From NCBI RefSeq assembly GCF_030656115.1, contig NZ_JAUSOO010000005.1:1-64000 (forward strand): a DNA stretch of 64,000 nucleotides, read 5' to 3'. Below, in pieces: positions 316 to 14,645 of the stretch. Numbering within the stretch: the stretch's first letter is position 1; each line of letters starts with the position of its first letter. The notes below the pieces were generated by a model. The model did not search any database. It worked only from the letters and a program-made list of their open reading frames with translations, and was not told the origin of the DNA. The DNA is from Hydrogenophaga sp. (GTDB lineage: Bacteria; Pseudomonadota; Gammaproteobacteria; Burkholderiales; Burkholderiaceae_C). A program made the position numbers and the translations under genes.

Positions 316-1728
316 GGTTGTTCGAACCATCCCGTATACACAAGTCAGATCCCACCGCTCTGGCGCGCATACCGTAGACCTTCGACAAAGACGGCCACGT
401 CCTGCATGCCCGGCCAGATCGACTTGACCCCCGGCTCGCCATCGCCTTTGCGCGCCAGAAATCCTCCGAGCTGCGCGATCAGCGGCAGCACCGTGTTGCG
501 TTCGGACACCGCCTTGAGCACGGGCTTCTTGTTCAGGATGAACGCCGCCTTCCACTCGTCGGCCTCGAACATCAGGTCCGCCGGCAGCTCCGCCAGCGCA
601 CGCCCCAGCCGCATCAACCGGTTGATGCGCCAGGCAATGACCAGGTACAGGGCCAGCGCCGTCTGCAACCGCTCGCTGTCACCGAGTTGCAGCCGCTCGA
701 CGCGGCAGCACTCCTTGAGCATCAGGAAGAACAGCTCGATTTCCCAGCGCGCCCGGTACCAGTCGATGAGCTCGCAGGCCTGCTCTAGCGTGTTCGCTTC
801 CCGATTCGTCAGCAAGCGCCAGACCACCGGCTTGACGCCCGCGCAGGCGCATCAATTTCGGCCGCCATCACGCAGGTCACCTCCAGTTCAACCTTGGCGC
901 TGTCCTTCAACATCACCCGCTCGATGCGCACCTGCTGTTGGACCGAGCGGGCCTTGCGTCCACGGCCAGCGGGCAGCTCAAAGCGCACACAGCCCAGCAC
1001 CGGCGCCTGGCCCACCTTCTCCCACAGCTTGCCGTCCTCGGGCAAGGCCCGGTTATGCTGGCTACGCACCAGGTAGTCGGCCGCGTGGTTAAGCTCACGC
1101 GCGCGAACCAGCAGCGCCATGATGTCGCTTTCTCGGTCGCACACGCAGACATGCCGCGTCTGCCCCAGCCTCAGCGCCTGCTCAGCCACACGCTCATAGC
1201 TCTCGATCCAACGCATGCTCTCCAGCGCTCCAGGGCGCGTGCCGTCTGCCGCCTTGAACTCGCGCGCCCAGGTCCACGCATTGGTCACACCCAGCAACTC
1301 GCGATCGGGCGTCACCACATAGGTTGGGTGCAGGTACAGATCGCGTTGGGCCTCGTAGCACAGCGGCCCCAGGACCGTTGAAGTCGAGCTCGGTAGTGTC
1401 CTGCAGGCACAGCACCACCGGGTGCTGGCCGATGCGCTGCTCGCTGGCTTGTCAATGCGCATGCATCACGTCGTCCCAGTTGACGTCCTCGTTCGACAGG
1501 AAGCGGTACGCTGCCACCGTCTCGCTCCAGTTCTGACACGCATTCAGAAAACTTGCCTCGGGCTTCTGGGCCAGCCGCTCGGCCAGCAGCACTGCCCTGC
1601 GGTTGAGCCGCGCATCGCCCAGATCCAGGGTCCCGAATTCTTTCGCCGCCCAGCTCACACCCGTACTCCGGTCATCACAAAGCCGTCATCCTACGAGATG
1701 TGTATAACGGGATGCGTTCGAGCCAGCC
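316..1728 (-). mobile_element. Decayed IS4-family (Tn5/IS50-like) insertion sequence
   Basis: The element is bounded by imperfect inverted repeats. The left end, about 316-344, contains TTCGAACCATCCCGTATACA. The right end, about 1699-1728 read on the minus strand, contains CTCGAACGCATCCCGTTATA. TATACACA within the ends resembles IS50-type termini. The length of about 1.4 kb suits a one-gene IS4-family element. I could not identify a convincing target duplication. The transposase inside is broken, so the copy should be immobile without help in trans. Confidence 0.6.
345..1658 (-). pseudogene. IS4-family transposase, disrupted
   Basis: A Tn5-like transposase starts at 1658 with the typical N-terminal domain (EFGTLDLGDARLNRR, then AAYRFLSNEDVNW). 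An in-frame TGA lies at 1452-1454. Past it the same frame gives VVLCLQDTTELDFNG, which carries the first catalytic Asp. A frameshift or small deletion near 1370-1380 then moves reading to the frame giving LGPLCYEAQRDLYLHPTYV and CVCDRESDI (second Asp). A further one-base shift near 830-850 leads into VVWRLLTNREA and the Y-(2)-R-(3)-E-(6)-K signature (YRARWEIELFFLMLK). One stop and two frameshifts make this a pseudogene, although all domains remain recognisable. Confidence 0.8.
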
Positions 1729-1876: not shown

Positions 1877-3850
1877 ATGAAGAACCGAACAGGCTGGGTA
1901 TGTGGTCTTTTGCTGTCCAGCGCACTGGCGTTGCAAGGATGCGCGGCGGACGGAGTTCCTAAAGTCCAGCCGATTGAAGAAGTCCATGGCAGCACATCAA
2001 CCAAGCCAGTGAATGACGACATTTTCATCCCCAGTGGGGTGTTCCCCAGTACAGGCGAAAAAGCGCAACCGCCAGTTGCGTACGACAACCAGCTGAGCGA
2101 TGCAGCCAAAGCCAGCACCGTGGGCAGTGCCGGACCATTGATGCCCAGCGTATGGCTTTATGTCTCACTCAGTTCCCAGGCTTTTTTAAATGGGACCGAG
2201 TTGGATTCGGGGGTAAATACCCGGGTATGGGAAACCTTTTTACGAAAATACGGATTTCCATTCAAAACGATCATCGGCCCTGAAAAGTTAGAAAACAGTG
2301 CTCCTGGAGTGTTGGTGTTGCCCTCTTTGGTGGCGTTGTCGGAGCGTGAAAAGCAGGCAATTATGAAGTTTCGCGCGCAAGGTGGAAGCGTGCTTAGCAC
2401 TTGGCTTACAGGCGTGCGTGATGAGCACGGAGTTTGGCAAGGGTTCGCATTCATGAAGGCAGGGTTGAATGTAGATGTTGTTGGGGATACGCAAGCTGAA
2501 GAAGAAGAGCATTTTATGATGGCGTACGGCGACAGCCCGGTGCTTCATAGCTTGTTGGCTGGGCAGCGAATTTGGCTTGAACGCCTTAAAGGTGTGTATC
2601 CCTTGCGACTTCAGGGGCAACAAGCCGCCGCACAGATCATGGACTGGCCTCGTCTGTCTATTGGCAAGAAAGTGAACGCTACACTTGTTTTTGGTGAACA
2701 TCGGCAGCCCACAGGTATGCTGTCTCGCTCGGTGGTTATGGGCTATCCAGAACGCTTATGGTTATCGGCCGACCCCAAAGCCATGGAAGCTATTGCGCAC
2801 AATTCTCTGACATGGTTATTTCGCCAGCCAGATGCGCGCTTGGCGGCATGGCCCCACGCATACAGCAATGCGTTATCAATAGCTGTCGTAGCACCTGAAG
2901 TCATTGATGACTTTGATCTGGCTTTCGCAGAGCGAATCGAAGAAATAGGGGTTAAAGCTACCTACTATTCCTTGTCGGTAAAAGCTGCCAAGTCCCCATC
3001 AATACTTAAAAAGTTACAGGAACAGGGCCACGAACTGGGCTACATGGCTGATTATTTCGAAGGTTTTCAGGGGCAGCCTGCTGACAAGCAAGCCAATCGC
3101 TTAAAACTTATGAAACAAGAGTTTGCCCAAGCTGGATTGGTGATCGGTGACACAATTGGTTTCTATGCGCCCATGGAAGCTCAGGACAAAATTACCGAAG
3201 GTTTATTAAACCAACAGGGGTTTACATACTTTGTGACATTCATGGACAAGACAGATGGACGCTTGCCAGTGCTATTACCCCGCGCACCAGGTGTTGACAG
3301 CACATCACAACCTTTGGTGATGTTACCTCGAACGCAGAGCGGCCCTGAAGATCTCATGATCGAAGGCGATCCTGATGAGGGGCTCAAAAAATACTTGGCA
3401 GAGTTTGAGTCTGCATTAGCCATGGGGGGATTGCTGTTTGTACGGTTTCCTAATCAGACGCTGCTTGATGATGAGCAACTCGATGCCATTTTGGGTCAAA
3501 TGAAAACCCATGCAAAGCGTCTGTGGATGGCACCCAATGGTGCTGTAGCTCGTTGGTGGCTTGAGCGAAATCGCGTCAGTGTTCAGATGGATATGGCCAA
3601 CGGCGCACTCCGTTTATCGGTTACTGTGGCGGGAAATACGCCCTTGTCGTTGCCTCCCTCGGTAACAGTCAACTTGCCTTATGCGAATGATTCTCTCAAG
3701 CTGGTACCGATTGGCCCGCAGGAGGCAACTCTTATTAATATGGTTGCTTTGGATCCTTGGCGTGTGGCTGTATCCCTGGGCCAACTTGCACCAGGAACAC
3801 ATCGTTGGAAAATGCAGTTTGAGAGAGCGGTTCTCATTAATAAAAGATGA
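1877..3850 (+). CDS. Lipoprotein with degenerate NodB-like deacetylase domain (paralogue 1)
   Basis: I use the ATG at 1877 (MKNRTGWVCG), which puts a signal peptide with lipobox L-Q-G-C directly at the N-terminus; this predicts an outer-membrane or periplasmic lipoprotein of about 657 residues. The N-terminal half has a Rossmann-like stretch (GVLVLPSLVALSEREK, then RAQGGSVLSTW) resembling glutamine-amidotransferase-like domains. The C-terminal half aligns with the NodB-like fold of the paralogue at 9303-11039. However, the catalytic Asp pair, the metal-binding His-x3-His (here GHELGYMADYF), the Arg of R-A-P (here FYAP) and the late His are all replaced. It is therefore probably not an active deacetylase and may bind polysaccharide. 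It lies 16 bp upstream of the algF-like gene, so it likely heads that operon. Confidence 0.7.
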   Translation: MKNRTGWVCGLLLSSALALQGCAADGVPKVQPIEEVHGSTSTKPVNDDIFIPSGVFPSTGEKAQPPVAYDNQLSDAAKASTVGSAGPLMPSVWLYVSLSSQAFLNGTELDSGVNTRVWETFLRKYGFPFKTIIGPEKLENSAPGVLVLPSLVALSEREKQAIMKFRAQGGSVLSTWLTGVRDEHGVWQGFAFMKAGLNVDVVGDTQAEEEEHFMMAYGDSPVLHSLLAGQRIWLERLKGVYPLRLQGQQAAAQIMDWPRLSIGKKVNATLVFGEHRQPTGMLSRSVVMGYPERLWLSADPKAMEAIAHNSLTWLFRQPDARLAAWPHAYSNALSIAVVAPEVIDDFDLAFAERIEEIGVKATYYSLSVKAAKSPSILKKLQEQGHELGYMADYFEGFQGQPADKQANRLKLMKQEFAQAGLVIGDTIGFYAPMEAQDKITEGLLNQQGFTYFVTFMDKTDGRLPVLLPRAPGVDSTSQPLVMLPRTQSGPEDLMIEGDPDEGLKKYLAEFESALAMGGLLFVRFPNQTLLDDEQLDAILGQMKTHAKRLWMAPNGAVARWWLERNRVSVQMDMANGALRLSVTVAGNTPLSLPPSVTVNLPYANDSLKLVPIGPQEATLINMVALDPWRVAVSLGQLAPGTHRWKMQFERAVLINKR

Positions 3851-3866
3851 TTGATATAGGATACAC

Positions 3867-4574
3867 ATGACATTGCATTTCAAATGGTCGCTATTTGCTT
3901 GTACACGGCGTATGGCTGTGGTTTGGTTGGGTTGTTTGCTTCTTGTGTCAGCACAGGCTCAACCCACTGGTCTGCTCTACGATCCGGAGCCTCCAGTTGA
4001 CTCAGGATATGTGCGCGTGATGATGGCTGCTGACATACCAAAGGTCTCGGTGGTGGTGGATGGGAAAATTAGGGTTCCATCTTTGGATAAAAATCAAATT
4101 AGTGACTATATGGTGATGGGTGTCGGAAAACACAGAATAGAGATGTTATCTGTCGGAAGAACTGCTGCATCCATAGAACTTGATGTAGTTCGTGCATCTG
4201 TAATGACGTTGGTCTTTACTTCGGCTGGCGCAGCCCCGCAAGTGTTTGTTGACAAAATCAGTACCAATAAACTCAAAGCTATGCTCAGCGTTTATCAGTT
4301 GGCAAGTAAGGATGAACCATTGGATATTTTGACCAGTGATGGAGCTACAAAAGTATTTTCCAGTTTGGCATATGGTAAGTTAGGGGCCATGCAGGTCAAC
4401 CCCATATCAGTTACGCTGATCGCTACAAATCCCGGTGATAAAACGTCATTGGCAAATGCTTCTTTGGTCATGACGCAAGGGGGAGCCTACAGCGTGTTTT
4501 TGTTGCCCACCAAGATTGACAAAATTGTTGCGGTTGTTGTACAAAATAAAATTGAACGATATACGGGTAAATAA
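3867..4574 (+). CDS. AlgF-like alginate-type O-acetylation protein
   Basis: A secreted protein of 235 residues with an N-terminal hydrophobic signal ending near SAQAQ. Just after cleavage it has the AlgF-type opening GLLYDPEPPVDSGYVRVMMA, followed by two predicted beta-rich halves. AlgF in alginate producers is a periplasmic adaptor that works with AlgI and AlgJ/AlgX during O-acetylation of the polymer; it has no known catalytic motif, and none is seen here. The gene sits between deacetylase-like paralogue 1 (16 bp gap) and an AlgJ/AlgX-like gene (29 bp gap), which supports the assignment. No alginate backbone genes are nearby, so the acetylated polymer is unknown. Codon use is AT-rich relative to the housekeeping genes. 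Confidence 0.72.
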   Translation: MTLHFKWSLFACTRRMAVVWLGCLLLVSAQAQPTGLLYDPEPPVDSGYVRVMMAADIPKVSVVVDGKIRVPSLDKNQISDYMVMGVGKHRIEMLSVGRTAASIELDVVRASVMTLVFTSAGAAPQVFVDKISTNKLKAMLSVYQLASKDEPLDILTSDGATKVFSSLAYGKLGAMQVNPISVTLIATNPGDKTSLANASLVMTQGGAYSVFLLPTKIDKIVAVVVQNKIERYTGK

Positions 4575-4603
4575 GTTTTTCTATACTTGATGGAAATATT
4601 GCT

Positions 4604-5599
4604 ATGAAACTTAAATCAACTTTTACATACTGCGCTCTGGTCGCTGCTGCTACTCTATCTCTCTCTGCTCAAGCTCAAGACGGTTCGACAGTGGTAGTGG
4701 GTAAAAATAATTGGTTGTTTACCAAATATGAATTTGCCCATCCTTCTGATGCGGCTGATACCCAAGCGACTATTCAGATGCTAGAAAAGATTAACAAGAT
4801 GTTTGAGCGAAAGGGTATTGCTCTTGCATTGGCAATAGTGCCATCCAAGATAAGAGTGAATGCTGATCAGTTGCCCGATGGTGTTAAGTTAGATGAGTAC
4901 ACGGCGCAAAAATATGAGAATGCTGTCAAGTCTTTGAAGGCTTCTGGCGTCAATGTTGTTAATCTGAATCAATCCTTCTTGAATAGCCCTGACCGTGAAG
5001 GTGAGAAGTCGCTTTTTATGCGGCTTGATACCCATTGGTCGAATTCGGGTGCTATGTTGGCCGCCGAAACTATTAAGGCAGAAATAGATGTAAATCCAAT
5101 CCTTAAAGCTGCATGGGGTGCTACGCCAGAAGAAAAATACACACTGACCTGGAATGCAAGAAGTACTCCAGTGCGTACACGCGACTTGGTAAGGCTGCTT
5201 CCGAGTGGCTCAGCGAATTACCCCCCTGAGTTGGTATTACAGTTTAAAGTCAAAAGAGATAATGAATCGAGTGCTGGATTGCTTGCTGGCGGTGATGCTA
5301 CGTTGATAACGGCAATTGGGAGTAGTTATTCCAATAAAAATACTGGTTATCCTGATGCTCTCCGATATGTGTTGCAGAGAAATATTTTGGATATATCCAT
5401 TCCCGTCGATCAAGGTCCTTGGGTAGGAATGGAATCCTATTTGAAAGATGAAGCTTTCAAAACTACTAAGCCAAAAATGATTATTTGGGAGATTCCTGAG
5501 CGTGAACTTCGTTCGCCTCCAAACTACAAGCATCGTGATGCTCGGTATGTAATTGATAATAATGATTGGTTGTCTCGGGTTGATGCGCTTTTGAAATGA
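4604..5599 (+). CDS. AlgJ/AlgX-like SGNH O-acetyltransferase (copy 1, periplasmic)
   Basis: A 331-residue protein with a cleavable Sec signal (ending SAQAQ). The SGNH-type catalytic elements of the AlgJ/AlgX family are present: D142-x-H144 in LDTHWSNSG, and the nucleophile S241 in GSSYS. The conserved family tail IIWEIPERELRSPP also matches copy 2. AlgJ and AlgX move acetyl groups from AlgI to the exopolysaccharide in the periplasm. There is no carbohydrate-binding module after the catalytic domain, so AlgJ-like size is the better match. Unlike copy 2 (13524-14645), it has no N-terminal membrane anchor. It is the third gene of a tight cluster with the algF-like gene. Confidence 0.75.
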   Translation: MKLKSTFTYCALVAAATLSLSAQAQDGSTVVVGKNNWLFTKYEFAHPSDAADTQATIQMLEKINKMFERKGIALALAIVPSKIRVNADQLPDGVKLDEYTAQKYENAVKSLKASGVNVVNLNQSFLNSPDREGEKSLFMRLDTHWSNSGAMLAAETIKAEIDVNPILKAAWGATPEEKYTLTWNARSTPVRTRDLVRLLPSGSANYPPELVLQFKVKRDNESSAGLLAGGDATLITAIGSSYSNKNTGYPDALRYVLQRNILDISIPVDQGPWVGMESYLKDEAFKTTKPKMIIWEIPERELRSPPNYKHRDARYVIDNNDWLSRVDALLK

Positions 5600-7247
5600 G
5601 ATTTGTGTATTGTTTCGTTCTTTATCCTTCGTAACTTGTGCCAAGCTATTAGGCAGTGCTATTCGTCTAGATTTTCTGCGTCATGGTGTTTCTTGTTGAA
5701 TGTCAGCGGCTTGCAGGAATTTTATATGAGGTGATTTGTCTACTGGCTTGGTGTTTTTTAAGCTATCGTGTGCTGTTTGATTTAAAAGTTGATCGGCAAG
5801 GAGAGCAGTAGCGATATGACTGTTTGTTGTGGTTGGGTGAATTGTGAGTTTCTTGCAAAGTGGAGATTTATTTTTTGGCAATGTGGTGGGTAACGATAGT
5901 TTCAATTTTGCCGTTTTTTACCCTGATCATTAAGCGCTTGGATTGATTTTTTAATTAAGTCACCCTGCAGAAGATTTTCATCGTATTCAGGCTCGCTGTG
6001 TGGATTCTGTAAGGTGAGAGTGGTACTCAGATGAAGTGGAAAACTTCATGAAGATGACTTAATGTAGGAGCGGTTCGGAGTAATTGATTGCAAACTCTAA
6101 GTAATTATGACTCCAATATTTATTTGCAGGGTGTGTTGAGTGAAATTTATTATCATTCGCAATAGGTGACTTGGGTTGACGAAAGAGGCGAATTTGATGT
6201 GGCCAAAGATAGACGTGTTTTAAGACTTGATGCTTTGTCCAATAATCGCGTAAATAATAGGTTGTTTTACTTCGTATGAGTTGTTTTTTATCATTAGAAG
6301 CTACCACTCTTTTTGTTGGCGTTACCTCTCTACTTACGGAGAGCTTTGCGATGAAAATTATGTGAAAAACTTCTATTGATTGAATTGTGTCAGTAGAAAT
6401 TTATAAGCTGTGGCGCTCGCTTACTTACAGGGATTTCATTTAGGGCCCAGCGTTGACACGATCACCATGAATCGTGAGTGGTATAGAACCTCCGTGCAGA
6501 TGGCCGAGATTATTTGGTGAATCTGTAGATGCAGGTGCCGCATTGTGCGCACGATAGAAGTCTTGCCTGCGGAGTTTTTGTCCCACCGTAGGCCCTGAGT
6601 GCGCCGGCCTCATTCGCAAGGAGCAGGCCACAACCCCCAATCGCACTTGGCTTGTGAAAGGAGTGTCGGCAGTATTTTTGTGCACCTCTGGGAGACTGAC
6701 ACAGGTAGCTCTTTTTCTCGCACAGTGCAATTGGTGCAGAAAGCTAAAGCTAAAAACTTGTTGAGTTTGATCCTGTGCTTGCATTCAACGTGTTGGACAA
6801 TGTTTGCACACGAGAGCGGCTTTGCGACGAAGTTGCTCAGTGTTGAGTTTGGGTTGGGTGTCCAGATTTCTTTGTGGCGATTAGACGGTTCCGCCCATGA
6901 TTGACGAAGATGCTGTGACCACCTTCATCAATACTGAGTGCTGTGTGGCTTTTAAAGCATATCGATTTCTGTTTTTGCCATGCAGTGATGGTACATCTTC
7001 CCCACGTATATTTGATATTCTTGTCTTTGATTGTTGCGGTTGGTGAAAATAGCTGGGATATCATTTTCTGATAATTTCGAAATTGCAATTTGAAACATTT
7101 GATATATAAATCTAAATTGTTTCAAATCCTGATGTGTTTCTTGAATGTGCATGCAAATTATGCAGACACTGCTTGAGTTATGAAATGAAATTCCTGTTTG
7201 GATACAATTTTTGTTGATTGTGTTTAATGATTCTGGAAAATCAAGAT
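5600..7247. other. 1.65-kb AT-rich stretch without an intact gene
   Basis: No reading frame here is long enough, or similar enough to a known family, to call intact. Short open frames on both strands are interrupted by stops. The stretch is AT-rich, except for a more GC-rich patch near 6430-6700. Frames on the minus strand between 5681 and 6307 look like pieces of a decayed SGNH hydrolase and are listed separately. The remainder may hold the promoter region for the gene starting at 7248, but I see no confident -35/-10 pair. Confidence 0.5.
5681..6307 (-). pseudogene. Possible remnant of an SGNH-type hydrolase
   Basis: Three protein-like minus-strand frames follow one another, separated by stops and frameshifts. 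One runs from 6307 (LIRSKTTYYLRDYW). A second, near 6050-5910, includes ENLLQGDLIKKSIQALN. A third, from 5905, includes KLTIHPTTTNSHIATALLAD, which resembles the C-terminal D-x-x-H-P block and following helix of SGNH hydrolases. Such enzymes fit the acetylation locus around it. The similarity is judged by eye and weak; it could equally be chance in AT-rich DNA. Confidence 0.25.
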
Positions 7248-9167
7248 ATGTTCAAGTGTCACGGATTGATTTTTTCAAGAAGTTTTTTTTGGCTTTCACT
7301 TGTCATATCGATGACGGGGTGCAGTTCACTTTCCATCGACAAATCATCTCAATTTATGGGTGAATTTGTAACCTCTATACAGGCAATAAGTGCCCCTCAA
7401 GAATTGGGTGGAGAACAAGCGAATCAAGGTCCATTGCACAAACCTAGGCAGTGGCAGAGGAAGCGAAAAAGCTTTGTTCCGAGTGATCCAAGTCAGGTTC
7501 GCGTATGGTTATTTTCTTCGCTGGCATCACAAGCTCAATTGATGAGGCTTGGGGCTGATCCAACCACTGGAATTCGAATGTGGGAGAACTACTTAAATTT
7601 TAACAGAATTCCTTTTGTTCGTATTACATCGGCTGATGATATTGATACAGCAAAAATATCGGGGGTACTGATATTGCCCTCGGTGGTGGTAATGAGTGAG
7701 TCTGAAAAAGAAGCGGTTAAGCGGTGGCGAGAAAGAGGTGGTTCAGTTCTTTCAACTTGGTTGAGTGCTGCATATTCAGCAACAGGCGAGTCAATAGGTT
7801 ATTCGTTCATGCGTGATGTTTTGGATGTGGTTGTTTCCGGGAATACGCAGGATGAAATTGACGATACCTATATGGTCATGAAAGGTGATAACCCTGTTTC
7901 AAATTCGCCGGCAGGGTTGCGTGTATGGTTGGAACGCGTTCCAAATCAACTGCCTTTAAGATTGATTGGAAAAAATGAGGCTGCTTATATCATGAGCTGG
8001 TCTCGTACTTTAGGCGCAAAAAAACCAGCTGGACTGATTGCTTTTGATGAGCGACGTATTTCAAAAGATATTACGTCACGCACAGTTACGCTCGGGTTTC
8101 CTGAACAAAATTGGTTGCGCTCTGATACGAGACAATTGTCAGCGATTACACGTGGTGCATTATCTTGGTTATTTAGAGAGCCTCATGCTTATGTTGGTGC
8201 ATGGCCTTCTCCTTATCAGAATGCTATCCTATTTGCGATACAAGCTGCAGAACCAGTTAGGCAAGCTGAGGTTGATATTGGAAATGCTTATCGTAAATTG
8301 GGAGGGGTGGCGACTTACTACGTTTTAGGCAGTAATATCGACAAAGCGGTACCTTTTGTTGAAAAAATTGCAGCGCAAGGTCATGAAATTGGTTTTTATG
8401 GTGACATATTCGAATCGTTCGACAAACAGCCTGAAAGTCAGCAGCTTGAACGTTTGGAGACAATGAAGAAGCAAGTTTTAAAATCGGGTCTCAAAATTCA
8501 AGAGCCGTTTAGTTTTTCGACGCCAATGAATGGTTATGATAGTACTACTCGTCGTTTATTGGAGGAGAAAGGTTTCGGAAATTATTTATCCTTCATGGAG
8601 TTAACTGAAAGTGCATTGCCTTTCGTTGCCAGTAGAAATTCCGATGGATCGCCAAGAACTACCGTTTTACCGCGCACATTGACTTCACCGGAAGAGGTTA
8701 TCATGGAGTTTGGGGCAGAAGATGGTATGACAAGTTATTTAGATTCGTTGGATATGTCTACGAAAATGGGTGGAATTTCTGTGGTTTCTATTCCATCTGA
8801 GAACCTGATTCCGCCTGAAGAGCTGCGACGCTTATTCGATAAGTTTTCCAAGTTAAATGATCAATCATGGTTCTCTTCTGCACGTCAAATTTCACATTGG
8901 TGGAGTCAACGTGAAGGCATCTCTGTTTTACTAGAGCCACACCCACAAGGCTATTCACTTTCCACAACGGTCACTAAAGCGATATCTTCATCTAATTCGA
9001 TTGGTATTTGGATTAATCTTCCTCGGTTAGATAGCAGGATTCAATTTCTTGGATTGACAGATACGGACAAATCTCCAGCTGTACTCGTTAAGGATGGTTT
9101 TCGGGTGGTCATGAATTTGAGTGTTCCTGCTGTTGGGCAAAAAAAATGGTTGATTAAGTTTGATTGA
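7248..9167 (+). CDS. Lipoprotein with degenerate NodB-like deacetylase domain (paralogue 2)
   Basis: About 639 residues from the ATG at 7248, which has GGAAAA about 10 bp upstream; earlier TTG (7218) and ATG (7227) codons lack a visible ribosome site. The signal peptide ends in a lipobox, M-T-G-C. The domain order matches paralogue 1: a Rossmann-like segment (GVLILPSVVVMSESEKEAV, then GGSVLSTWLS) followed by a NodB-like domain. The metal-binding His-x3-His is replaced (GHEIGFYGDIF), R-A-P has become S-T-P, the first catalytic Asp motif is absent and the late His is lost, so deacetylase activity is unlikely. Paralogue 3 follows after 135 bp. AT-rich codon use fits the surrounding island. Confidence 0.68.
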   Translation: MFKCHGLIFSRSFFWLSLVISMTGCSSLSIDKSSQFMGEFVTSIQAISAPQELGGEQANQGPLHKPRQWQRKRKSFVPSDPSQVRVWLFSSLASQAQLMRLGADPTTGIRMWENYLNFNRIPFVRITSADDIDTAKISGVLILPSVVVMSESEKEAVKRWRERGGSVLSTWLSAAYSATGESIGYSFMRDVLDVVVSGNTQDEIDDTYMVMKGDNPVSNSPAGLRVWLERVPNQLPLRLIGKNEAAYIMSWSRTLGAKKPAGLIAFDERRISKDITSRTVTLGFPEQNWLRSDTRQLSAITRGALSWLFREPHAYVGAWPSPYQNAILFAIQAAEPVRQAEVDIGNAYRKLGGVATYYVLGSNIDKAVPFVEKIAAQGHEIGFYGDIFESFDKQPESQQLERLETMKKQVLKSGLKIQEPFSFSTPMNGYDSTTRRLLEEKGFGNYLSFMELTESALPFVASRNSDGSPRTTVLPRTLTSPEEVIMEFGAEDGMTSYLDSLDMSTKMGGISVVSIPSENLIPPEELRRLFDKFSKLNDQSWFSSARQISHWWSQREGISVLLEPHPQGYSLSTTVTKAISSSNSIGIWINLPRLDSRIQFLGLTDTDKSPAVLVKDGFRVVMNLSVPAVGQKKWLIKFD

Positions 9168-9302
9168 TTTTGATAAATTGTTGTAGGTTGCTTGTTGAGT
9201 TCGGATGGGTGGTGTTTTTAGTTATTTTCGCAGGTCTGGTTATTGTTTTTTGCTTAATGAATTTTTTGAATATTTTCATGTTGATGGAATTTTTTTACTT
9301 AC

Positions 9303-11039
9303 ATGTTTAAATTTTTCTGTGTTTTGGTTTGCTTGCTGTTCGCTGCCTCTGCCGCGTTGGCTAAAACTTCTGCAGAGAGTAAATTATTTCTTTACATTAG
9401 TCCGACAACTCATGATTATTTTTTGTCTCAAAATGAAACGTATGAATTATCTGTGAAACGTTGGCGCACACACTTGAGGAAATTTGGGAAACAAGCACAC
9501 ACGATTGGTCGCGAGCAACTTGTGGGTGGAGTTCTATTGGGCACTTTAATTCTTCCAAATAGTGTTGCTTTGGCTGCTGATGAACGAGAGGCTATAAAAC
9601 TTTTTGTTTCGCGGGGTGGTAATTTGTTAGGGAGCGGGTTGGTCGGTTCTCGTGATTCTTCTGGGAACTACGTCGGATTGGATTTTTTGCAATCTATATT
9701 TCATGTTGAGACTAACGGTTTTTTTCAAGAAACGTCTGACTCATTTTTTATGCCATATGGTGACGGCCCTGTAACCTGGCCAGTTCCTGCTGGCAGAAGA
9801 ATGCCGTTATTGTCTGCTAAAGATTCTGTTCTTCGACTCAAATCTGATAATTTGGCATCCGTAGTTATGGACTGGTCTCGCACCATGGATTTACAGCCCA
9901 ATGGTGTCATGGCATTCAATGAAATAGGTCTTAGTCGGTTGGTTTATTTTTCATTTCCAGATACAGCTTGGCCGTACAACAGGGATGTTCAGTTGGTGAT
10001 GGATGCGAGCCTTGCGTGGTTAAGACGTGAGCCAATAGCGTATAAAGCTGCTTGGCCAGACGGTTATGTGGCTTCCCATTTGATTGAAATGGATACTGAA
10101 GATAAATTCGCAACTGCAGTTCGCTTGGCAGAGCTTCTTGAGGGGGAAGGATTTAGAGGAACGTTTTATTGCCTGACCTCCGAAGCAGTTCGAGAGCCTA
10201 AAACAGTTCATAATCTTTTGGCTCGGGGTCATGAGATTGCTTATCATGCCGATGTCCATTTCGGTTTCAATGGTGATCCCGGTGGAGAGCAAGAGCTTCG
10301 TATTGCTTTTATGATTCAACAAATGCAAAGCATTATTGGTGAGCGCTCGAAAGAGGCGACTGGCTTTCGTGCGCCGACAGAATCATACGACGCAACTACC
10401 GAATCATTACTGCACAAGTACGGCATAAAACATCACGCTGCTGATTTGAGCTCAAGCGCTGATCGGCTGCCTTTTTTTTCGGACCCGGGAGGGGGGCGCT
10501 TAAATTTCAGTCAATCTTTGGTTGTGTTGCCACGCACTCAGCGAGATGATATAGAATTTCAAAAATTGCAGTTTAATGCCGATGCAATATTGGCTAATTT
10601 ATTGTATGATCTAAATCACACTGTAAATAGTGGTGCATTTGGTCTTTTGTCGGTTCATTCGCAATATTTTGTTGATGGGGGGTTTATGCTAAGCCCTATG
10701 AGAAGTTACGTGAAAAGAGTCTCGGATTTCAGGGATAGACTTTGGGTGGCGCGCGGTGATGAGATAGCCAATTGGTGGCGTAGGCGAGAGGTTGTAACCA
10801 TCAAGCAAAAAAAACGAGAGTCAACGTTGACTATTCTAGTTGATAGCCCGATTTCTGTGCCTGGCTTAAGTGTTTTTGTTACAGTGCCTCGAAAGAATGC
10901 AGTCATGAGGATTGTAGATATCTCAAATACATCTTCGGTTCGCGTAAAGAAGATTGACTCGTTTCGTTCGGCTCTTATTTTTGATAAACATAAAGAAGGT
11001 AAGACCGTCTTAAGTCTGGTGTTTGATGATGGTCGATGA
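9303..11039 (+). CDS. Exported NodB-family polysaccharide deacetylase, catalytic residues intact (paralogue 3)
   Basis: A 578-residue protein with a cleavable signal peptide (ending AALA) rather than a lipobox. The Rossmann-like N-terminal region (GTLILPNSVALAADERE, then RGGNLLGSG) is shared with the other two paralogues. The NodB-like domain keeps every catalytic element: D264-T-E-D267 (a D-x-E-D form of motif 1), H315 and H319 in GHEIAYHADVH, R356-A-P358, and H452 in LLSVHSQ. It is therefore the only member of the trio predicted to remove acetyl groups from a polysaccharide in the periplasm or at the surface. The substrate is unknown. It lies 135 bp downstream of paralogue 2 on the same strand. 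Confidence 0.72.
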   Translation: MFKFFCVLVCLLFAASAALAKTSAESKLFLYISPTTHDYFLSQNETYELSVKRWRTHLRKFGKQAHTIGREQLVGGVLLGTLILPNSVALAADEREAIKLFVSRGGNLLGSGLVGSRDSSGNYVGLDFLQSIFHVETNGFFQETSDSFFMPYGDGPVTWPVPAGRRMPLLSAKDSVLRLKSDNLASVVMDWSRTMDLQPNGVMAFNEIGLSRLVYFSFPDTAWPYNRDVQLVMDASLAWLRREPIAYKAAWPDGYVASHLIEMDTEDKFATAVRLAELLEGEGFRGTFYCLTSEAVREPKTVHNLLARGHEIAYHADVHFGFNGDPGGEQELRIAFMIQQMQSIIGERSKEATGFRAPTESYDATTESLLHKYGIKHHAADLSSSADRLPFFSDPGGGRLNFSQSLVVLPRTQRDDIEFQKLQFNADAILANLLYDLNHTVNSGAFGLLSVHSQYFVDGGFMLSPMRSYVKRVSDFRDRLWVARGDEIANWWRRREVVTIKQKKRESTLTILVDSPISVPGLSVFVTVPRKNAVMRIVDISNTSSVRVKKIDSFRSALIFDKHKEGKTVLSLVFDDGR

Positions 11040-11225
11040 TTGTACCGGATTGGATTGTCCAGAAGGCATGGGGTGAATATTTTTGCTATGGAGTTAGGTG
11101 ATTTTACTTATATGAGTTTTCGTGGACACATTATTTTTGTGAAAATCAGCCACTTATGAAATTCTTCACATGAAGAGATATCGGCTAATGTCTTGGTATG
11201 ATCAAATGAATCATGAATATCTTGA

Positions 11226-11975
11226 TCATCGGCAAATCATTCCACCTTGTATATGCTCTTGGTTCGAGATTAGAGTATCTAAAATGGCTTGCGACAGTTC
11301 TAGATCATAACCGTGAATGTTTCCTTGACCGCCATATCCAGGTTCTGAGTTGTATCCGGGAAAAAGCTGTCCTGCCTGTATTTGAAGAGGATTCGCTTGT
11401 AAGCCGAAAATTGCCTTGTATCGGCTGATGACTTGGTAATCTAGTCGTTGAGCATGGTCGTAGATGAGCCTGTTGCGTTCACTCCATTGTTGTGCTTGGG
11501 TGGACATGGTGGCGCCGATATCCACCCAAAAATAGGCAGCGTTGGGTGCCAAAGATTTGAGCTTGTGCATCAGTTGCTCCTGACTTTCTGCAAAATCAGC
11601 CTCCAGCAAGTTGGTACCCAAAATGATGATGATGACTTTGGCATTCGAAATAAGCGCAGCATCAGCGTCAACGCTCTCAAGTGCTGATTTCTGGATGTGT
11701 GTGCCCGGCGTGGTGATGGAGCGTCCGCCGTCAAAACTGATTTTTTGTGGACCACGTAGCAACGCACGGAGAGTCACTTCTAGGCCGGCGTGTTTGAGCC
11801 CCATACCCAGCGAGTCGGCCAGGACGTAAGCAGAAGCTGGGCTGATCTCGCATGCTCTCGCAGGGGGGGGGGCCTTGATCCCTTGTTTGACTGGGTCGGC
11901 ACTGGCCGAGATCGGTGTACTGCTGAAAAAGCAAGCGAAACCCAACGCACGAATACAATATGTAACCTTTGACAT
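11226..11975 (-). CDS. Secreted SGNH-like esterase with a C10 tract
   Basis: A 249-residue protein with a signal peptide ending near ISASA. It has an SGNH block I (LADSLGMGL, Ser55), a block III-like GTN (120-122) and a C-terminal His (H221 in GNIHGYD). The Asp normally three residues before that His is Gly, so catalysis may be atypical. A plausible role is O-deacetylation or O-acetyl transfer on the locus polysaccharide. The gene is transcribed towards the deacetylase cluster and away from the algI-like gene. Codons for A35-P38 contain a run of ten C, immediately after the signal peptide; a change of one C would abolish the protein. Confidence 0.6.
   Translation of the reverse strand: MSKVTYCIRALGFACFFSSTPISASADPVKQGIKAPPPARACEISPASAYVLADSLGMGLKHAGLEVTLRALLRGPQKISFDGGRSITTPGTHIQKSALESVDADAALISNAKVIIIILGTNLLEADFAESQEQLMHKLKSLAPNAAYFWVDIGATMSTQAQQWSERNRLIYDHAQRLDYQVISRYKAIFGLQANPLQIQAGQLFPGYNSEPGYGGQGNIHGYDLELSQAILDTLISNQEHIQGGMICR
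11863..11872 (-). repeat. Homopolymer of ten C (coding strand) in the SGNH-like gene
   Basis: Ten consecutive G on the plus strand, that is, C10 on the coding strand of the gene at 11226-11975. It encodes part of A-P-P-P just after the signal peptide. The ten-base length keeps the frame open. Tracts of this length commonly slip during replication and can act as ON/OFF switches. Confidence 0.85.
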
Positions 11976-12119
11976 GTCGCAGCACCGATGTAGTGTGTAG
12001 AACTGGGCAGTTTAAGAGGTCGGGAAGTTGCCGGATGCAACAAGGGGAGGACGTCTGGCAAGAATTTCTCTGGTGGCTTGAGGGCATGTACCGTTTCATA
12101 ACATTATTCACTGCTGGCT

Positions 12120-13514
12120 ATGGTTTTCACCTCCCATGTGTTCCTGTTTTTGTTCCTGCCGCTGTTTTTGGCGGTTTACTACGTATCGCCATTTCGGCTT
12201 CGCTCGGGAATCATCCTGGTTTTTAGTTATTTTTTTTACGGTTGGTGGCGACCTGATTTTGCGTTGTTGCTGGCAGGGGTGACGCTGGGAACCTACTGGC
12301 TGACCTTGCTGATGGAGTCAGAGAGCTGGAGAGACAGGCGCAAGCTGGTGCTTACCTTTGGCGTTGTGGGCAATCTTTTGGCGTTGGGTTACTTTAAGTA
12401 TTTCAATTTTGGCATGGACAGTATGAACCTGCTATTGGCAGGTTTGGGCGTAGGGCCTATGGAGTACAGTCGCGTGCTGTTACCGATCGGGTTGTCATTT
12501 TTTATTTTTCAGGCCATCAGCTACATGGTGGATGTGTACCGAGGGGATGCACCCGTTACGCAAAACGTATTTGATTTTGCTGCTTTTATTTCATTTTTTC
12601 CTCAATTGGTGGCCGGCCCTGTGTTGCGTTACCAGCCGCTGGCGGACCAGTTTCGTGAGCGGGTGCATTCATGGTCGCATTTTTCACATGGTTGTCTGCT
12701 GTTTATGGCGGGGTTTTCTGGCAAGGTGCTGATTGCAGATCCCATGAATCCGTTGGTGGAGTCGGCATTCAGCGTTGCTGCGCCAACCATGGCCGATGCT
12801 TGGTTGGGAGCATTGGCTTACACCATTCAACTCTTTTTTGATTTCAGCGGCTACAGCACCATGGCGATTGGCTTGGGATTGATGGTCGGCTTTCACTTTC
12901 CCAAGAATTTCAATGACCCTTACGTTTCTGCCTCTATCACCGAATTCTGGCGTCGTTGGCACATTTCTCTTTCCACGTGGCTGCGGATGTATTTGTATGT
13001 CCCACTGGGGGGCAATCGCAAAGGATCGGTGAGAACCTATGTCAACTTGATGGCCACCATGGTGTTAGGGGGGTTGTGGCATGGCGCCAACTGGACGTTT
13101 ATTGTCTGGGGCTTTTGGCATGGGGGGCTCTTGGCGCTTGAGCGTTACTGGCGCAGCAAGTTCCCGAGACCGATGTTGCCCAGGTGGGTGGCGGTGCTGT
13201 TTACCCTGGTGCTTGTGATGATCGGTTGGGTGTTTTTCAGAGCTGTCAACGTTACTGCGGCGTTGACCATGCTCACAGCTATGTTTGGTCTATCGGGTGG
13301 ATGGTCTTTGACTTTCAGTCCGTCCATGGCTTGGCAAGTCGTGCCTGAGAGGCTGTGGGTCATGGCGGTAGGGGGGTTGCTGGTCTTTGCGCTGCCTTGG
13401 GTCAAGCGATCTGTTGTGGGGCGTGCTCGATTGTTGATTTTGCCGATTTTTGTTTGGGCGGTAGCAACGCTTTCTTCGCAGGCGTTCACGCCGTTCCTCT
13501 ATTTCCAATTCTGA
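12120..13514 (+). CDS. AlgI-like MBOAT membrane O-acetyltransferase
   Basis: A 464-residue polytopic membrane protein of the MBOAT family. It opens with hydrophobic helices and has the AlgI-type region LLPIGLSFFIFQAISYMVDVYRG split across residues 121-142. It also carries WRRWHISLSTWLR (His281) and GLWHGANW with the presumed catalytic His321. AlgI-type proteins pass acetyl groups across the inner membrane to AlgJ/AlgX partners. The gene lies 9 bp upstream of an AlgJ-like gene, which supports a two-gene acetylation unit. No clear ribosome site precedes the ATG at 12120, but the frame begins exactly with the conserved MBOAT N-terminus. The polysaccharide target is not evident from this window. 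Confidence 0.85.
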   Translation: MVFTSHVFLFLFLPLFLAVYYVSPFRLRSGIILVFSYFFYGWWRPDFALLLAGVTLGTYWLTLLMESESWRDRRKLVLTFGVVGNLLALGYFKYFNFGMDSMNLLLAGLGVGPMEYSRVLLPIGLSFFIFQAISYMVDVYRGDAPVTQNVFDFAAFISFFPQLVAGPVLRYQPLADQFRERVHSWSHFSHGCLLFMAGFSGKVLIADPMNPLVESAFSVAAPTMADAWLGALAYTIQLFFDFSGYSTMAIGLGLMVGFHFPKNFNDPYVSASITEFWRRWHISLSTWLRMYLYVPLGGNRKGSVRTYVNLMATMVLGGLWHGANWTFIVWGFWHGGLLALERYWRSKFPRPMLPRWVAVLFTLVLVMIGWVFFRAVNVTAALTMLTAMFGLSGGWSLTFSPSMAWQVVPERLWVMAVGGLLVFALPWVKRSVVGRARLLILPIFVWAVATLSSQAFTPFLYFQF

Positions 13515-13523
13515 GGCCGCACC

Positions 13524-14645
13524 ATGGATGAAGATCGTATGCAAATTCCGTTACGGGCCCCACTGGAGGTCTGGCTGGCGGGTGCTTTGATGATTCTGTT
13601 GATGCTTTTCGGTCTGTGGCAGGCATCGTATGCCTTGCGCGATCCGGCCCTTGCAGATGTGCCAACGACAATGGAGGACATGCGCTCGGGTGTTGCGTCT
13701 GAAAAGTTCAGTAAGCATGTGGACATGCATTTGCCTGCCCGTCATGCTCTTATTGCCACAGCGAACGCAGGACGCTACACCATTTTTCAGGGGACGGGGG
13801 ACGACGTACGGTTGGGGCGGAACGAGTGGCTATTCTCCGTTGAAGAAATCAAATACGAGGCACAAGCTGACGTTTGGATGGGGCAACGGTTGGATACCGT
13901 GGCTCGTGTATCTAAGTGGCTGAATCAAAGAGGGATTCTTCTGGTGGTAGCCTTGCTTCCAGATAAGGCCCGCGTTCATGAGGCTCAGTTGGCCAGTGGT
14001 ACTTACCCCGTCTGGTATGCACACCGCTATGGTTCAGCGCTGCAAAGTCTGCGTACTGCAGGTGTCCAGACGGTTGATGTGCGTGATGTGTTGGAGCCTG
14101 AGGGTAAGCGCAGGCCCATGTTTTACAGCACCGATACCCACTGGAACCAAGAGGGGGCGGATCTCGTTGCGCAGGCTGTGGCACGACGCGTGCGCGAACT
14201 TGCTCCCTATTTGCCTGAAGTTCGGTTCAAGACAGAGTTGTCGGCGGAGAGCAAAACCCGCGTGGGTGATTTGCTGAGGTTGATTGGCCTGAGTGATGCG
14301 CCCGATTGGTTGCGGCCCAATCCTGACATCGAAAGCGTACAAACCACGGTGCTGGTCAGTGAAAAGGCGCAAGGAGGCTTGATGGATGATGTCAGTGTAC
14401 CGGTCGTGCTGGTGGGCACATCGTACTCACGTCGAGCCAATTTTCATGGGGCTTTGCAGCAACACCTCTCTGCTGAGGTATTGAACATGTCCAAAGACGG
14501 CGGTGGTTTTTCTGCTGCCATGAACGGGTATTTGAAGGGTGAGGAATTCATGAATTCACCGCCTCAGGTGCTGATCTGGGAAATTCCCGAGCGTGTGCTT
14601 TCGCAACCGTTGTCTTTGGTTGACACGCAGGGCTGGCCATTTTGA
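13524..14645 (+). CDS. AlgJ-like membrane-anchored O-acetyltransferase (copy 2)
   Basis: A 373-residue protein with an uncleaved N-terminal membrane helix (about residues 15-33) and a periplasmic SGNH domain. Catalytic elements are D204-x-H206 in STDTHWNQEG and nucleophile S300 in GTSYS. The tail LIWEIPERVLSQP is shared with copy 1. It probably accepts acetyl groups from the AlgI-like protein encoded 9 bp upstream and transfers them to an exopolysaccharide. Base composition is closer to the chromosome average than that of copy 1, so the two copies may have different histories. Confidence 0.78.
   Translation: MDEDRMQIPLRAPLEVWLAGALMILLMLFGLWQASYALRDPALADVPTTMEDMRSGVASEKFSKHVDMHLPARHALIATANAGRYTIFQGTGDDVRLGRNEWLFSVEEIKYEAQADVWMGQRLDTVARVSKWLNQRGILLVVALLPDKARVHEAQLASGTYPVWYAHRYGSALQSLRTAGVQTVDVRDVLEPEGKRRPMFYSTDTHWNQEGADLVAQAVARRVRELAPYLPEVRFKTELSAESKTRVGDLLRLIGLSDAPDWLRPNPDIESVQTTVLVSEKAQGGLMDDVSVPVVLVGTSYSRRANFHGALQQHLSAEVLNMSKDGGGFSAAMNGYLKGEEFMNSPPQVLIWEIPERVLSQPLSLVDTQGWPF

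Follow-up and report, generated by a model that had tools for sequence, protein, structure and literature searches.

A catalytically equipped NodB-like protein beside two predicted lipoprotein pseudo-deacetylases in a putative exopolysaccharide modification locus of Hydrogenophaga

We analyzed the first 64 kb (hereafter the window) of a 96-kb contig, NZ_JAUSOO010000005.1, from the assembly GCF_030656115.1 of a Hydrogenophaga sp. (4.8 Mb, 190 contigs, 97% complete), and focused on three NodB-like genes on its forward strand: NodB1 (1877..3850), NodB2 (7248..9167) and NodB3 (9303..11039). The results suggest, with a probability of about two in three, that NodB3 is the metal-dependent deacetylase of a periplasmic set, and that NodB1 and NodB2 are old, maintained, outer-membrane-tethered pseudo-deacetylases that hold the polymer and dock its enzymes near the exporter. 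A first-pass annotation made from the DNA alone had described one intact copy and two degenerate ones, and had proposed that the latter became polysaccharide-binding or export partners; such a role would fit the reading given here.

All three proteins match the Pfam family Polysacc_deac_1 (E-values of 1.8e-4 for NodB1, 1.1e-5 for NodB2 and 3.5e-9 for NodB3) and align along their length, so that the suggested check by profile search places them all with the NodB/CE4 proteins, with NodB1 (21.9 bits) slightly under the curated cut-off of 23.1. The identities of NodB1 and NodB2 to NodB3 are 31% and 26%, respectively. NodB3 has E262, D264, E266, H315, H319, R356 and H452; the HxxxH, RAP and late-His motifs of CE4 are present, and motif 1 reads E-x-D-x-E. 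H315 and H319 are replaced by M and F in NodB1 and by Y and F in NodB2, R356 is replaced by Y and S, respectively, and the late His is lost in both. These observations confirm, as far as sequence can tell, that NodB1 and NodB2 are pseudoenzymes and that NodB3 is catalytically equipped. The motif-1 pair had been given as D264/D267. D264 holds, but position 267 varies among active relatives (D, E, Q, A, W, F or G), and the motif conserved in these relatives is E262-M-D264-T-E266. E262 and D264 align with both Asp residues of D-V-D-A-E in the CE4 structure 3rxz, although the profile match is not significant over this part, and the base and ligand roles of motif 1 would be divided between them.

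In a sample of 250 genomes of the family, 6 had a NodB3 homologue, and the NodB1 search gave 2 of 399 genomes sampled from the order, the Hydrogenophaga genome itself being included in both counts. A scan of a species-genome collection yielded 61 loci; the four weakest (L093-L096) were excluded as members, which left 57 clear relatives from 38 assemblies, as counted by contig prefix. All of these are labelled as Betaproteobacteria or one of its subgroups, except one 'Proteobacteria bacterium', and the named genera are Polaromonas, Rhodoferax, Hydrogenophaga, Noviherbaspirillum and Janthinobacterium. Together with the loci from the family search, the scan gave 103 NodB-like frames, corresponding to 94 distinct proteins, which were assigned to classes by the tree and the best match (the L096 frame was left unclassified). 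Class A (22 proteins) is of the NodB1 type, class B (7) of the NodB2 type and class C (13) of the NodB3 type; class D (31, counting a 233-amino-acid (aa) fragment of L082 that is not scorable) lies beside a PgaC-like GT2 wherever the sequence extends over this part, and class E (20) comprises other active copies, mostly solitary.

The active site is intact in none of the 29 A/B proteins, compared with 54 of the 57 scorable C/D/E proteins (C, 12/12; D, 26/28; E, 16/17), and the two His residues of the Asp-His-His metal triad never occur together in any A/B protein. A whole-protein search of the family that used no motif gave 18 proteins, with intact sites in 8 of 8 C/D and 0 of 10 A/B proteins; some of its genomes recur in the species-genome scan. 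We also calculated a tree from 84 rows of at least 500 aa, without L096, by a quick method and with a root placed only for drawing. Classes A and B formed a group of 29, separated from the 55 C/D/E rows with a support of 100 in the Shimodaira-Hasegawa-like approximate likelihood ratio test (SH-aLRT), and class B was nested within A (support of 87 for its link with L030). Classes A and B thus share common ancestry as one clade, and the distinction between one intact and two degenerate copies is borne out both by the lost residues and by this split.

Next, we compared position conservation between the two clades, which have 23 conserved polar or aromatic positions in common. The differences fall mainly at catalytic positions: conservation of D264, E266, H315, R356 and three others is confined to the active clade, and in A/B proteins E262 is replaced by a conserved A and H319 by a conserved F. 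The cleft positions of A/B proteins are mostly A, F and P. The polar or aromatic residues conserved only in A/B (R166, W233 and S283) all lie before the barrel, and the barrel polar residues E386, R408 and D437 are retained in A/B and equally conserved in the active clade. The ratio of nonsynonymous to synonymous substitution rates (dN/dS) was 0.13-0.18 for five class A pairs and 0.10-0.27 for five C/D pairs. The class A values indicate that these genes are not decaying. Given that the catalytic loss is accompanied by retained scaffold positions and low dN/dS, this result is typical of maintained pseudoenzymes rather than decay.

The NodB fold, which was to be checked by structure prediction, was recovered in AlphaFold2 models of NodB3 and NodB1. 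The NodB3 model (predicted local distance difference test (pLDDT) score of 91.2) matched the CE4 structure 3rxz with Z 27.3, 241 aligned residues and a root-mean-square deviation (rmsd) of 2.5, and the NodB1 model (pLDDT 81.8) matched it with Z 22.2, 237 aligned residues and rmsd 2.8. Both models consist of an alpha/beta domain, the NodB barrel and a beta-rich end. The best matches of the alpha/beta domain are GH42 beta-galactosidase-type domains; it starts near residue 25 in NodB3 and residue 86 in NodB1, too early for a GH166 domain to precede it. Among the 50 matches listed for the NodB3 model, only PelA (9cgy) and a fucosidase (6tvk, rmsd 9.5) were near full length, PelA aligning with residues 19-575 (424 aligned, Z 17.5, rmsd 12.9). 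The allantoinase PuuE (3cl6) was among the closest folds to both models, and the CE4 pseudoenzyme BA3943 (7bkf) matched the NodB1 model with Z 16.9.

The two degenerate copies had been described as lipoproteins, and a lipobox is indeed present in NodB1 (LQGC/AADG, AA being next to the motif) and NodB2 (MTGC/SSLS, with SS next), which are therefore predicted to be lipidated. NodB3 has an N-terminal hydrophobic signal without a lipobox. A simple scan found a lipobox in 7 of 7 class B and 13 of 22 class A proteins, and none of these 20 has Asp at position +2; a lipobox without Asp at this position is taken as an outer-membrane sorting signal. The class C protein of L045 also gave a lipobox-like match. 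Among class D proteins of at least 500 aa, 26 of 28 have an N-terminal 19-residue stretch with a mean hydropathy of at least 2.0 (the exceptions are L089 and the start-truncated L077), and the corresponding stretches of class C score 1.5-2.3 and end in what looks by eye like signal-peptide sequence. We interpret these patterns as an outer-membrane position for A and B, inner-membrane anchoring for D and a free periplasmic location for C.

We then examined the gene context in relatives. The three genes had been regarded as a trio, but the contiguous A-B-C arrangement was seen only in this genome: in all four other assemblies that showed A as well as a B-C pair (G130, G221, G083 and X1_MetaBAT.31), the two are on different contigs. 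The recurring units are instead the B-C pair and A-AlgF. Class C adjoins B (seven loci) or A (three), or lies beyond A-AlgF-AlgX (one), in all but one (L043) of 12 assessable loci, and AlgF adjoins A in 15 of 21 assessable cases. A PgaC-like GT2 that keeps DDG, DGD, ED and QRYRW lies next to the class D NodB gene in 25 of 25 cases, with one short opposite frame between them in L089 and L090; the loci were fetched through NodB, so that this adjacency does not test linkage independently. Around the GT2-D pair, there are varying combinations of BcsE, a weakly PgaA-like tetratricopeptide repeat (TPR) protein, BcsD, BcsQ, BcsB, GH18, AlgI, AlgX and AlgF, and on a Rhodoferax contig (G660:C150, L134 with L070) all cluster parts except BcsD occur together with GT2, D and A. 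Judged by gene content, the NodB genes of relatives belong to a predicted hybrid exopolysaccharide cluster with PgaC-like, Bcs and Alg parts. The expected link to exopolysaccharide modification genes is thus seen both in these loci and, through AlgF, AlgX and AlgI matches, in the window itself.

Several class D and E genes depart from the patterns above. The class D NodB proteins at L089:9893-11668 and L090:1-1160 represent a separate active-site loss, which has removed E262, H315 and H319. Further degenerate copies are found at L067:9740-11725 (Noviherbaspirillum galbum, class E) and L043:16425-18146 (class D), the latter on a long uncertain branch. L046-L049, L051-L056 and L058 have an active class E NodB gene without an adjoining A or B gene; in L055, it is followed by genes for an ABC ATPase and a DUF1631 protein, and similar-sized frames follow in some others. 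In L082:9929-11970 and L091:6602-8355, class E is split into two adjacent frames, possibly by frameshifts.

We also aligned 27 BcsA-like proteins with E. coli BcsA. This set excludes new-locus frames of up to 300 aa and earlier-locus frames of up to 500 aa (e.g. L061, L068 and L079), as well as a G646 frame (L143, overlap filtering) and the matches at G646:C74 and G663:C119. Nineteen of the 27 have neither TED nor QxxRW (L042, L050, L059, L073, L075, L133-L142, L144-L146 and L148), seven are intact (L063, L065, L066, L089, L149, L150 and L151), and that of L147 is a different glycosyltransferase. D-x-D is still present at the DCD site in five of the degenerate proteins, and DD at the first site in five. 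In each of the 19, the DxSxxG of the E. coli PilZ domain is replaced by NFP, and RxxxR is kept in five, so that binding of cyclic di-GMP has likely, although not certainly, been lost. BcsB adjoins 18 of the 19; L075 ends before the BcsB position. These 19 correspond to 19 of the 36 related genomes searched (without L043 and L054). Of these 36, 28 gave a BcsA-like match of any strength, and in 14 a match exceeded the curated cut-off. The four loci L063, L065, L066 and L089 hold an intact BcsA with GT2 and D, and a degenerate BcsA occurs elsewhere in the same genomes. A connection between class C and the loss of BcsA catalysis was considered and rejected, since several genomes hold both forms. 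Tentatively, and at slightly below even odds, we propose that the related clusters represent an undescribed synthase-dependent exopolysaccharide system of Burkholderiales, in which a PgaC-like synthase would be live, a dead BcsA and BcsB would be kept to form a channel or scaffold, and NodB proteins A and B would dock beside the active D and C.

In the window, the NodB genes are accompanied by a set of acetylation genes. The contig end adjoining NodB1 carries transposase frames in pieces (345-1462, reverse strand), one of which matches a Tn5-type dimerisation domain. Between NodB1 and NodB2 are genes for an AlgF-like O-acetylation protein (3867..4574, forward; Pfam AlgF, E 1.2e-17) and an AlgX-like SGNH acetyltransferase of the AlgX1 type (4604..5599, forward; Pfam ALGX, E 1e-54), followed by about 1.6 kb without a credible gene (5600-7217). 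The longest open frame of NodB2 begins at 7218, upstream of the called start at 7248. Downstream of NodB3, a signal-bearing protein that looks SGNH-like by eye is encoded on the reverse strand (11226..11975); it matched no Pfam family at E 1 and was not the best match of any gene in the mapped related loci. Next are an AlgI-like MBOAT membrane O-acyltransferase (12120..13514, forward; Pfam MBOAT, E 3.3e-31), the sole MBOAT match of this genome, and an AlgX/AlgJ-like SGNH acetyltransferase of the AlgX2 type (13524..14645, forward; Pfam ALGX, E 2.7e-71). The guanine-plus-cytosine (GC) content is 41-50% across 2-12 kb and 56-68% from 14 kb onward, and NodB3 had no match at E 1e-20 in either of the two further Hydrogenophaga genomes that the family sample contained, which together fit acquisition from outside the genus. 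A plasmid origin was considered and rejected, NodB3 having no match among 72,556 plasmid records at E 1e-10; so was a defence role, the three NodB proteins having no PADLOC match at E 0.01.

If the preferred reading is correct, then NodB3 would strip acetyl groups from a periplasmic polymer that probably contains N-acetylhexosamine, because relatives have a PgaC-like synthase and GH18. NodB1 and NodB2 would keep the scaffold of alpha/beta domain, NodB barrel and beta-rich end without the metal site, base and acid, and, anchored by lipid, would hold or guide the polymer and dock the enzyme or AlgF/AlgX near the exporter. The B-C pairing would couple deacetylation to export, and the pairing of A with AlgF/AlgX would couple O-acetylation to export. 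We liken this docking to that predicted for the PelA alpha/beta and deacetylase domains on the PelB TPRs.

Several points weigh against this reading. The search patterns of the species-genome scan hold active-site letters, so that the count of 54 intact proteins among 57 C/D/E proteins is biased upwards, and the A/B proteins were mostly seen there as neighbours. Some of the 22 class A proteins keep D264 (13), H315 (5) or R356 (6). Of the five class A pairs behind the dN/dS of 0.13-0.18, three belong to a single close lineage and two approach synonymous saturation (proportion of synonymous differences, pS, 0.66), and the sole class B pair is saturated at synonymous sites. A lipobox was not found in 9 of 22 class A proteins, so that tethering is not universal. 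The rmsd of 9cgy to NodB3 is large, so that this match supports the domain order only, and 9cgy is not among the 50 matches listed for NodB1, so that a PelA-like architecture of A would follow from its homology to C. Finally, the synthase core was not found in this genome, and the local system may be incomplete. BcsB, BcsE and a class D NodB gene had no match in the 97% complete assembly, nor did a close PgaC-like GT2, the best being a 26% match to a relative's GT2. The gaps at 1-1900, 5590-7260, 9160-9310 and 11030-12130 were compared with a reference set, of which, apart from self-matches, no member matched at better than E 0.009; two weak all-frame matches in 1-1900 (E 4e-4 and 7e-4) were rejected as core remnants. 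The absence reflects either a missing contig or loss of the core, perhaps through insertion sequences at the contig end.

The latter possibility introduces an alternative that is compatible with the explanation preferred here: the locus may be an orphan remnant, left with modification genes but no polymer of its own. The missing core and the window starting at a contig end with transposase fragments fit this idea. However, a missing or misbinned contig is plausible in view of the 190 contigs and the low-GC segment, the set has intact open frames and the gaps contain no clear core remnant; we therefore regard it as a serious but minority possibility. The same absence of the core, the contig edge beside transposase fragments and the lost catalytic residues could also mean that NodB1 and NodB2 are decaying, functionless copies. 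For the family, this view is disfavoured and very improbable, given the full-length open frames, the low class A dN/dS, the loss shared by 29 proteins of one clade and the 23 positions conserved with the active clade.

We also considered whether NodB1 and NodB2 could catalyze some other reaction, perhaps one that needs no metal, in the manner of the CE4-fold allantoinase PuuE. The PuuE fold is close to both models, and A/B proteins keep E386, R408 and D437 in the barrel. However, the equal conservation of these residues in the active clade makes them look structural, the residues specific to A/B all precede the barrel and the cleft positions are largely A, F and P, so that this chemistry seems quite improbable. 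Another view takes the locus for a standard Wss-type set that modifies acetylated cellulose, to which CE4 proteins have been added, as the AlgI, AlgX and AlgF homologues would suggest. In L063, L065, L066 and L089, an intact BcsA, BcsB and a BcsC-type protein occur in the GT2/NodB D locus, and BcsA exceeds the curated cut-off in 14 of the 36 related genomes. The intact BcsA beside GT2 and D in these four loci and the occasional retention of RxxxR raise the odds of this view and lower those of a system with two dead enzymes. Nevertheless, BcsB was not found in the Hydrogenophaga assembly, the synthase beside NodB D is the PgaC-like GT2 in every case, and more than half of the related genomes (19 of 36) have a degenerate BcsA. 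Thus, we consider a Wss-type set unlikely.

No description of the hybrid cluster was found in the result listings of searches of the open-access literature. An operon survey treats five synthase-dependent systems (PMC7112194), and its main text does not mention Polaromonas, Comamonadaceae, Rhodoferax, Burkholderiales or a hybrid. Pseudoenzymes of polysaccharide export are little known. In several of the lineages studied here, a dead paralogue has been passed on next to a live one, so that the role of a dead deacetylase is directly testable. In addition, the dead BcsA that many relatives retain in one cluster with a different live synthase suggests that export machinery is reusable, one enzyme being lost and another recruited for a new polymer.

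Among known systems, PelA (CE21, 9cgy) resembles NodB3 in the order of its alpha/beta domain, CE barrel and beta-rich domain; it is reported to work together with a TPR exporter in the periplasm, and a predicted complex docks its deacetylase and alpha/beta domains on the PelB TPRs (PMC12022489). PelA differs in having a GH166 domain, which is absent here (GH18 is encoded separately in relatives), and in its motif 1 (H-x-D-x-D, compared with E-x-D-x-E here), and the present locus has active and dead paralogues. On the predicted models, the NodB proteins do not show the four-domain composition of CE21. The PgaABCD system of poly-N-acetylglucosamine shares with the related clusters, although not with the window, a PgaC-like GT2, a weakly PgaA-like TPR protein, a CE4-like deacetylase and a glycoside hydrolase. 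However, one relative's GT2 scores 226.8 bits against a PgaC curated cut-off of 422.3, the TPR matches score 22-26 bits against 366.65, and Bcs and Alg parts are added. The acetylation proteins AlgI, AlgX/AlgJ and AlgF recall Wss acetylated cellulose and alginate AlgFIJX, but here NodB proteins are present, no cellulose synthase subunit was found, and the cluster BcsA of many relatives is degenerate. CE4 pseudoenzymes as such are already known. BA3943 (7bkf) is a solved structure described as such in its Protein Data Bank title, and we know of no exopolysaccharide setting for it. The Bacillus proteins BA0330 and BA0331 are reportedly CE4-fold lipoproteins that lack deacetylase activity and have a structural role (PMC4505593), as predicted for A and B; they are Gram-positive cell-wall proteins that keep Asp-His-His, whereas A and B have lost the triad and sit in exopolysaccharide loci.

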